Shown here: positions 17,015 through 19,384 of the stretch, piece by piece
How positions within the stretch are numbered: position 1 is the first letter of the stretch
Layout of the letters: each line of letters opens with the position of its first letter
DNA from: Pseudomonadota bacterium
GTDB lineage: Bacteria > Pseudomonadota > Alphaproteobacteria > Rhodospirillales > Magnetospirillaceae
Direction of reading: 5' to 3'
DNA: 64,000 nt
Assembly (NCBI GenBank): GCA_021782815.1
Contig: JAJXUO010000008.1
Location: forward strand, 1 to 64,000
Made by a program: the position numbers and the translations under genes
Notes under the pieces: model-generated
What the model was told of the DNA's origin: nothing
Database searches by the model: none
What the model saw: only the letters and a program-made list of their open reading frames with translations

Positions 17015-17048
17015 AAAAAAAAGACCCCCCGGAAAATTTCCGGGGGGT
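17015..17048 (-). terminator. Strong Rho-independent terminator of the candidate structured RNA
   Basis: The 12-bp stem ACCCCCCGGAAA (17024-17035) / TTTCCGGGGGGT (17037-17048) is followed on the minus strand by C and eight T. On the plus strand only TTCC follows, so minus-strand use is far more likely. Confidence 0.85.
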
Positions 17049-17203
17049 TCCTAGTAACAGGGAGGCTTCACGTCTGGGAGACGTAGGGTCCGAAGACCCG
17101 AGATCGGGCAGGGCCCGAACCAAGGTGGGTTTGCAAGGAAACCCGAAATCCGTCCTCACGCTGCGCGGCAACGTGCGGTGAGGTCTTTGTAGGGGATTTT
17201 TGC
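17024..17203 (-). ncRNA. Candidate structured non-coding RNA of about 180 nt
   Basis: Read on the minus strand, the segment is a chain of short perfect hairpins: an arm pair at 17154-17159/17178-17183, GGGTTT...AAACCC, CGGGC...GCCCG, GGGTC-TTCG-GACCC with a stable cUUCGg tetraloop, ACGTCT...AGACGT, then the strong terminator at 17015-17048. The UUCG loop and the T-run both occur only in the minus-strand transcript. A possible promoter (ATGACC, 16 bp, CATAGT; -10 at 17211-17216) would start the RNA near 17203. No open frame fits the segment. It lies between the diguanylate cyclase and LysR genes. I could not match it to 6S (present at 51603), SRP, tmRNA or RNase P RNA. Confidence 0.6.
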
Positions 17204-17324
17204 CGGGGCGACTATGGATGATGCGACATGGGGTCATGCGCTGTGCACATAGCGGCGGCGTTCGCGGGTTTTTTCGCCGCCGCTGCCTGCCCTTTGGGCA
17301 AGGGGTGGGGCGTGGGCCGGTGGT

Positions 17325-18248
17325 TCAGAAGGTTTGCGCCACCTGTTGCGCGGCGATCTGCTCCGACTGGTCGGCGATTTTCTTGATGAGGAAATCGCGG
17401 AACACGGCGATGCGCTTGGAGTGGCGCAGTTCCTCGGGGTAAACGAAATAGGCGTCGAAGCTGGGGCCGCGCAGTTCGGGCAGGATTTCCACCAGATTGT
17501 CGGCCTCGCGCGAGAAATAGTCGGGCAGGGCGCCGATGCCCAGCCCGCTCTGCACGGCGCGGAAGATGCCGTAGATGTTGTTGACCTTCAGCACCGGGCG
17601 GCGCGGCGATTCCGGCTGGGCTCCGGCGTCCAGCAGCCAGTTGACGTTGCCCACCGGCGGGCGGCAATCGTCGCCGTAGATGATGATGCGGTGGTTGTCC
17701 AGTTCCTCGATGGTGCGCGGCACGCCGTGGCGCTTCAGGTAATCGGGGGCGGCATAGACATTGTAGTGCATGGGCATCAGATGGCGCTGCACCAGATCGG
17801 GCTGGCGCGGCGGCATCATGCGGATGGCGACATCGGCCTGGCGCATGGCCAGATCCAGTTCGCCATCATCCAGCACCACGCTCATCTGAATATCGGGATA
17901 AAGTTCCAGGAATTCCCGCACGCGCGGGGTCAGCCACAGGGTGCCGAAGGCGACGGTGGTGGTGACTTTCAAAGGGCCTTGCGGACGTTCGCGGCTTTCC
18001 GAGAGCTGGGCCTCGGTCATGGCCAGTTTGGCGAAAACGTCGCGGGCGGTGCGGAACAGCAGTTCGCCCTGCTCGGTCAGGATCAGGCCGCGGGCGTGGC
18101 GGTGGAACAGCGGTACGTTGAGGCTTTCCTCCAGCGCGCTGATCTGGCGGCTGACCGCCGATTGGCTAAGGTTCAGCGCCTCGCCCGCATGGGTGAAGCT
18201 TCCGGCCTCGGCCACCGCATGGAACACCCTTAACTTGTCCCAGTCCAT
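17325..18248 (-). CDS. LysR-family transcriptional regulator
   Basis: 307 residues. The N-terminal winged helix-turn-helix is intact (MDWDKLRVFHAVAEAGSFT ... LNLSQSAVSRQISALEESL ... LFHR), followed by a type 2 periplasmic-binding-like effector domain at about 90-300. It binds DNA as a multimer and responds to a small ligand or redox cue. It lies downstream of trxB on the same strand with a 104-bp gap, so it may control or be co-expressed with the thioredoxin reductase/peroxiredoxin genes. No Cys pair of the OxyR type is visible in the effector domain; the single Cys of GDDCRPP is not at the OxyR position. OxyR is therefore unlikely. Confidence 0.88.
   Translation of the reverse strand: MDWDKLRVFHAVAEAGSFTHAGEALNLSQSAVSRQISALEESLNVPLFHRHARGLILTEQGELLFRTARDVFAKLAMTEAQLSESRERPQGPLKVTTTVAFGTLWLTPRVREFLELYPDIQMSVVLDDGELDLAMRQADVAIRMMPPRQPDLVQRHLMPMHYNVYAAPDYLKRHGVPRTIEELDNHRIIIYGDDCRPPVGNVNWLLDAGAQPESPRRPVLKVNNIYGIFRAVQSGLGIGALPDYFSREADNLVEILPELRGPSFDAYFVYPEELRHSKRIAVFRDFLIKKIADQSEQIAAQQVAQTF

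Positions 18249-18352: not shown

Positions 18353-19384
<1,032 letters not shown>

Follow-up and report, generated by a model that had tools for sequence, protein, structure and literature searches.

The 64,000-nucleotide stretch of contig JAJXUO010000008.1 analysed here (the window) very probably carries, behind the gene of the LysR-type regulator VtlR/LsrB, a stand-alone small RNA gene that would be activated by VtlR and whose product would repress mRNAs at their ribosome-binding sites by means of two anti-Shine-Dalgarno motifs. The RNA looks like the counterpart of AbcR in Magnetospirillum-like bacteria and many of their relatives. Conservation, synteny and covariation lend strong support to a structured minus-strand RNA at 17015–17180, as supposed in the initial annotation of this DNA. 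Its description there as novel holds in the sense that the segment gives no Rfam match at cutoff, but AbcR1's place, the promoter palindrome and the anti-Shine-Dalgarno motifs are common to both RNAs, and it would therefore be a diverged form of a small RNA type already known. The elements of the locus are as follows.

17015–17180, minus strand: predicted small RNA gene of about 165 nt, from its fold and its conservation in relatives; the T run marks the 3' end, and the 5' end is a deduced one
17157–17175, minus strand: hairpin 1, from the fold, eight pairs including one G-U; compensatory changes in relatives
17127–17144, minus strand: hairpin 2, from the fold; variable in length among relatives and outside the covariation analysis
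17104–17118, minus strand: hairpin 3, from the fold; double changes in 7/7 pairs
17086–17099, minus strand: hairpin 4 with a UUCG loop (GGGUC-UUCG-GACCC), from the fold; double changes in 5/5 pairs
17070–17084, minus strand: hairpin 5 (ACGUCU-CCC-AGACGU); double changes in 6/7 pairs, one pair invariant
17075–17080, minus strand: CUCCCA in the loop of hairpin 5, identical to motif M1 of the Brucella AbcR RNAs (PMC5461406, excerpt)
17050–17069, minus strand: linker GAAGCCUCCCUGUUACUAGG; GAA and CCUCCCUGU invariant across 30 family sequences
17056–17065, minus strand: second anti-Shine-Dalgarno motif CCUCCCUGUU, within the linker
17015–17049, minus strand: intrinsic terminator, stem of 11 bp and eight T; double changes in 9/9 modelled pairs
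17186–17191, minus strand: putative −10 element TACAAA, at a TA conserved about 60 nt past the box start in 62 loci
17236–17250, minus strand: LysR-type box ATGTGCACAGCGCAT (ATG-N9-CAT), one mismatch to ATGC-N7-GCAT
17325–18248, minus strand: vtlR/lsrB orthologue of the LysR family, presumed activator; 51% identical to the S. meliloti protein, matched by LysR-family models
18353–19330, minus strand: trxB, thioredoxin reductase (TIGR01292, 409.8 bits, above cutoff)

On the minus strand the order is a peroxiredoxin-like gene, trxB, the lysR gene and the RNA, and the neighbours first assigned to the segment were borne out as genes for a GGDEF protein (TIGR00254, above cutoff) and a LysR-family protein. 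None of the LysR-family models among the matches listed for the 17325–18248 protein exceeded its own equivalog cutoff; this LysR gene, which follows trxB, is the orthologue of vtlR/lsrB.

Folding recovered the five minus-strand hairpins described at the outset, one of them with a UUCG loop, followed by the strong terminator, whose eight T were confirmed while its stem counted 11 pairs instead of the 12 initially given. Of 200 dinucleotide shuffles, 199 folded less stably than the 231-nt segment 17000–17230 (z −3.3). Since its plus strand appeared equally stable (z −3.4), the strand is not given by folding alone, and the initial orientation is upheld by the T run and by the 80 aligned matches, all of which are conserved on the strand of VtlR. 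The hairpins of the 5' part showed a mean z of −2.1 over 30 loci versus −1.2 for an upstream control (p 0.02), and those of the window itself were no more stable than shuffles (z −0.05). The RNA occurs once in the source genome; a further DNA match there is the terminator stem on the opposite strand.

At the DNA level, 40 of the 55 family genomes gave a match. Thirty of the matched loci were aligned, 28 of which, unlike L018 and L023, had this LysR gene in the sequence retrieved, and the covariance model R1 built from these 30 family sequences matched 45/55 family genomes at E ≤ 0.01. At E ≤ 1e-8 the count was 42, the 30 training genomes being among the matches, with the position behind VtlR checked for part of the 42. 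Among 80 titled VtlR loci, some of which share genomes with the R1 training set, 59 gave an R1 match at E ≤ 0.1, and all of these except L214 did so at E ≤ 1e-8. The positive loci include Magnetospirillum, Paramagnetospirillum, Thalassospira, Novispirillum and Terasakiella, and R1 found no match in four of five Telmatospirillum, three of three Rhodospira and the single Roseospira loci. A class-wide model, R2, was built from 80 matches and recognized 61 of 90 alphaproteobacterial VtlR loci (E ≤ 0.01), these being sampled from 100 VtlR places. Fourteen of the 61 lie outside the training set, including two doubtful matches, L292 and L097, which lack CUCCC or resemble bare terminators.

Compensatory changes support the fold. 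In the 80-row alignment, which was fitted to the model and covers hairpins 3, 4 and 5 plus the terminator, 96.3% of the cells were paired and both sides had changed in 27 of the 28 modelled pairs. Neither value was reached in any of 500 shuffles, and pairing fell to 45–50% when the partners were slid by one column. An independent MAFFT alignment of 30 sequences showed double changes in 19/33 predicted pairs and supports hairpin 1. The loci are related, and therefore these counts are not independent. Eleven family loci (L111–L115, L117–L120, L122 and L124), whose VtlR proteins are 78–88% identical, had no R1 match at E ≤ 0.01 and no ATG-N9-CAT in 572–700 nt; this common absence of RNA and palindrome suggests their joint loss. 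In these loci, as in Telmatospirillum L137–L140, trxB-vtlR is kept where no RNA match was found; L116 retains both RNA and palindrome, and Telmatospirillum sp. J64-1 (L146) has the RNA.

The region between vtlR and the RNA appeared highly enriched in a LysR-type palindrome. Eight extra copies within the same loci were removed from the 80 aligned matches. Of the 72 loci left, 57 carried ATGC-N7-GCAT, against 0.26 expected from shuffles or 1.0 from a Markov control (at most 4 in 200 runs); none of 72 coding stretches of the same length had it. The published VtlR box GCAT-N3-TG-N3-T occurred in 18/72 loci versus 1.07 expected; the exact 13-bp form is absent from the window. Within 400 nt of VtlR the palindrome was found in 41 of 61 loci with the RNA versus 6 of 29 without it (p 4e-5), and it was not found behind VtlR in Paracoccus, nor in Shinella, which has its ar15 RNAs at that place. 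Sixty-two loci anchored on ATG-N9-CAT share a conserved TGG near +37 and a TA near +60. This spacing, from which the 5' end of the RNA was derived, would have transcription begin near 17180 with the box centred around −63, and suggests a promoter composed of a LysR-type box and weak −35/−10 elements. The 'plausible promoter' of the initial annotation did not stand in conventional form, as the promoter scan found no sigma-70 consensus on the minus strand. In 14 named loci with two close copies, about 270–380 nt apart, each of the 28 copies has a palindrome of its own (L170, whose second match is 2.5 kb off, was left out of this count). Tandem full copies occur in L180–L184, L190 and other Thalassospira/Terasakiella loci, reminiscent of abcR1-abcR2.

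The arrangement of the locus resembles that of the AbcR RNAs of Sinorhizobium, Agrobacterium and Brucella (AbcR1/AbcR2; ar15, RF02345), which in S. meliloti and Agrobacterium are likewise found downstream of trxB-vtlR/lsrB on the same strand. The Agrobacterium order is trxB-vtlR-abcR1-abcR2, with direct activation of abcR1 by VtlR (PMC7486931, excerpt), and LsrB acts on abcR1 of S. meliloti through a promoter containing T-N11-A motifs (PMC8844928, excerpt). In S. meliloti CP090106.1, a record labelled plasmid, trxB, lsrB, two ar15 RNAs and an ArsR gene follow one another on the same strand. Upstream of abcR1 lies a LysR-type box, which has the exact form ATGC-N7-GCAT in both S. meliloti and Sinorhizobium sp. 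K101; the putative box of the window RNA has one mismatch to it. AbcR and the window RNA have in common the CUCCCA loop motif, a second CU-rich motif, an intrinsic terminator and the occurrence of tandem copies, in this case those of Thalassospira. The architectures differ, since AbcR RNAs of 114–120 nt with three hairpins are described (PMC7143759, excerpt; three are also predicted in the excerpt of PMC3712013), whereas the window RNA has about 165 nt and five hairpins before the terminator. Likewise, the second AbcR motif, GUUCCC/UUCCCCUC, follows the first hairpin, and CCUCCCUGUU stands at the corresponding place in the window RNA.

Homology to ar15 could not be demonstrated by covariance models in either direction. 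The ar15 model (cutoff 40 bits) found no match in the genome at E ≤ 0.001, while scoring 110.2 and 106.5 bits on the S. meliloti positive control L129; in the weak-match listing a sub-threshold ar15 score could be masked by a better clan member. R2 against six AbcR copies from S. meliloti, Sinorhizobium sp. and Shinella was not significant (best E 0.17), and neither was a model of those six copies against the window RNA (E 0.097). A screen of 190 class genomes gave no ar15, but neither did 14 controls, hence this screen is uninformative on absence. The label ar15 was consequently rejected, on account of the model failure and the different architecture, and the RNA is best termed AbcR-like by place, presumed regulator and motif rather than an ar15 member.

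These failed cross-matches, together with the three hairpins predicted for AbcR and its different second motif (excerpts of PMC3712013, PMC8844928 and PMC5461406), could also mean that an unrelated RNA settled behind VtlR and resembles AbcR without common descent. We regard this as possible although somewhat doubtful, because locus, order and strand are identical, the same palindrome precedes abcR1 in two Sinorhizobium records, and two loci, L082 and L085, appear intermediate by eye. The latter carry two or three copies, in which a CCUCCCAGU loop reminiscent of AbcR stem-loop 1 precedes CCUCCCUGUUAGACUU and the 3' part is like that of the family of the window RNA; they possibly represent evolutionary intermediates. 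The literature searched contained no published description of this RNA in Rhodospirillales, nothing joining AbcR with Rhodospirillales and nothing on AbcR1 with Magnetospirillum. AbcR and Azospirillum were co-mentioned twice, in one case with the name, as far as the excerpt shows, in the reference list only, and a motif search in the excerpt of an Azospirillum small RNA paper (PMC7685610) found nothing.

The SorX and SorY RNAs of Rhodobacter (RF02784, RF02651) share with the window RNA the 3' part, CCUCCCUGUU-GACU-terminator, although their models are shorter (73 and 83 positions), and SorX scored 15.9 bits on the window RNA against a cutoff of 46.6. An RNA behind VtlR in Paracoccus denitrificans (L134, 3521–3628) exceeded the SorX cutoff with 52.6 bits, and RNAs behind VtlR in L302 (2242–2350) and L303 (2224–2314) scored 52.3, also over the cutoff, and 41.5 bits; the last two scored with SorY as well, both below its cutoff. 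R2 matched the Paracoccus RNA (E 1e-9) and those of L302 and L303 (1e-11 and 6e-9), none of which was used in training. SorX was not found together with VtlR, LsrB or AbcR1 among the literature matches listed; a co-mention of LsrB and SorY concerns Salmonella, where we take the names to mean other things.

Unlike the AbcR-like RNA proposed here, SorX of R. sphaeroides is cleaved by RNase E from the 3' UTR of ompR-1 (PMC6238624, excerpt), which raises the alternative that the window RNA is cotranscribed with vtlR and released by RNase E without a promoter of its own. Its position directly behind vtlR on the same strand, the missing sigma-70 consensus and the scores, below cutoff, of the SorX model on some class members are in line with such an origin. 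It nonetheless appears improbable, given the LysR-type palindrome between vtlR and the RNA at conserved spacing to −35/−10-like positions, the repetition of that palindrome ahead of each tandem copy and the fact that abcR1 has its own LsrB-driven promoter (PMC8844928, excerpt).

In Rfam 15, the 6S RNA was the sole window match at cutoff, no family reaching it on the RNA segment. This 6S RNA (RF00013; 51607–51765, plus strand, 63.2 bits against a cutoff of 46.4) lies elsewhere, as first noted, and being the single 6S match of the window it was rejected as the identity of the RNA. A divergent copy of mmgR/suhB (RF00519) is very unlikely: it gave the best weak match by bits and has a similar CUCCCU linker ahead of the terminator, but 25.7 bits are below the cutoff of 41, and a clear suhB copy elsewhere in the genome (64.8 bits) argues that the RNA behind vtlR is not mmgR, which was thus discarded. 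NfeR1, with three anti-Shine-Dalgarno motifs per molecule (PMC8844928, excerpt), is likened to the window RNA by description only; no such family figured in the weak Rfam listing, where overlapping matches of the same clan are hidden.

The 3' end of the gene appears to be used by mobile elements. Twelve second copies were fetched from family genomes (L246–L257), and in all ten that were searched against Pfam the divergent frame beside the copy was a tyrosine integrase with an Arm-DNA-bind_3 domain. A similar frame adjoins the copy in L253, seen without a Pfam search, and a scripted scan found no integrase-like motif beside that of L250. Ten of the eleven pairs of full and second copies share an exact run of 32–97 nt, starting within hairpin 5 and excluding the upstream part of the gene, and several genomes have the full and the second copy on separate contigs. 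The duplication of the 3' end beside these integrases looks like that of an attachment site, generated by integration of elements into the 3' end of the small RNA gene in Magnetospirillum relatives. That the locus is nothing but such a site with a strong terminator, retained through reuse by mobile elements, is scarcely credible despite the duplicated 3' core, since it is also conserved in genomes with a single match (source genome included) and across numerous further families of the class, and the stems upstream of the shared core covary.

From the structure, conservation, synteny, box and motifs described above, we infer that the gene, of roughly 165 nt, is transcribed on its own, with VtlR/LsrB, encoded just upstream, binding the ATG-N9-CAT palindrome near −63 and activating transcription. 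With CUCCCA of hairpin 5 and CCUCCCUGUU of the linker as its anti-Shine-Dalgarno motifs, the RNA would pair at ribosome-binding sites and so repress target mRNAs, like AbcR1. In S. meliloti both CU-rich motifs of AbcR pair with target mRNAs, partly at least at ribosome-binding sites (PMC8844928, excerpt). Candidate sites of the form CAGGGAGG-N(2-11)-ATG have 26 matches in the genome (two pairs overlapping) versus three for the reversed pattern. The frames at these matches suggested, by eye, an acyl-CoA dehydrogenase, methylenetetrahydrofolate reductase, a glutamate synthase subunit and ferredoxin, and many matches had no long reading frame. No ABC transporter, the kind of target repressed by the Hfq-dependent AbcR RNAs, was recognized by eye among the genes with a matching strong Shine-Dalgarno sequence, and hence an AbcR-like target class is not confirmed.

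The signal at the head of this predicted circuit may also be different. Two conserved redox cysteines are discussed for rhizobial/Agrobacterium LsrB (PMC11975290, excerpt), and both positions, matched by eye, are valine in the window VtlR and the aligned Magnetospirillum and Thalassospira proteins; Paracoccus VtlR, matched in the same way, has no cysteine at either. Owing to these replacements by valine, the signal sensed by the window VtlR may differ from that of LsrB.

Taken together, it is plausible, with about equal weight for and against, that AbcR in Hyphomicrobiales, the SorX/SorY-like RNAs in Rhodobacterales and the five-hairpin RNA are the forms taken in different lineages by a single ancestral anti-Shine-Dalgarno small RNA under VtlR control. 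Throughout Alphaproteobacteria this RNA would have kept its place behind trxB-vtlR even as its body was remodelled around CUCCC motifs, and in Magnetospirillum relatives its 3' end would also serve as a recurrent integration site of elements with tyrosine integrases. Work on AbcR RNAs has centred on rhizobia, Agrobacterium and Brucella. A unit of regulator and small RNA at about two thirds of the 90 sampled VtlR loci would extend the AbcR circuit to Magnetospirillum, Thalassospira and many others, would supply VtlR with a likely target in those groups and would permit a class-wide comparison of small RNA rewiring. As the window VtlR lacks the redox cysteines found in Agrobacterium LsrB, the same output module may answer different signals.
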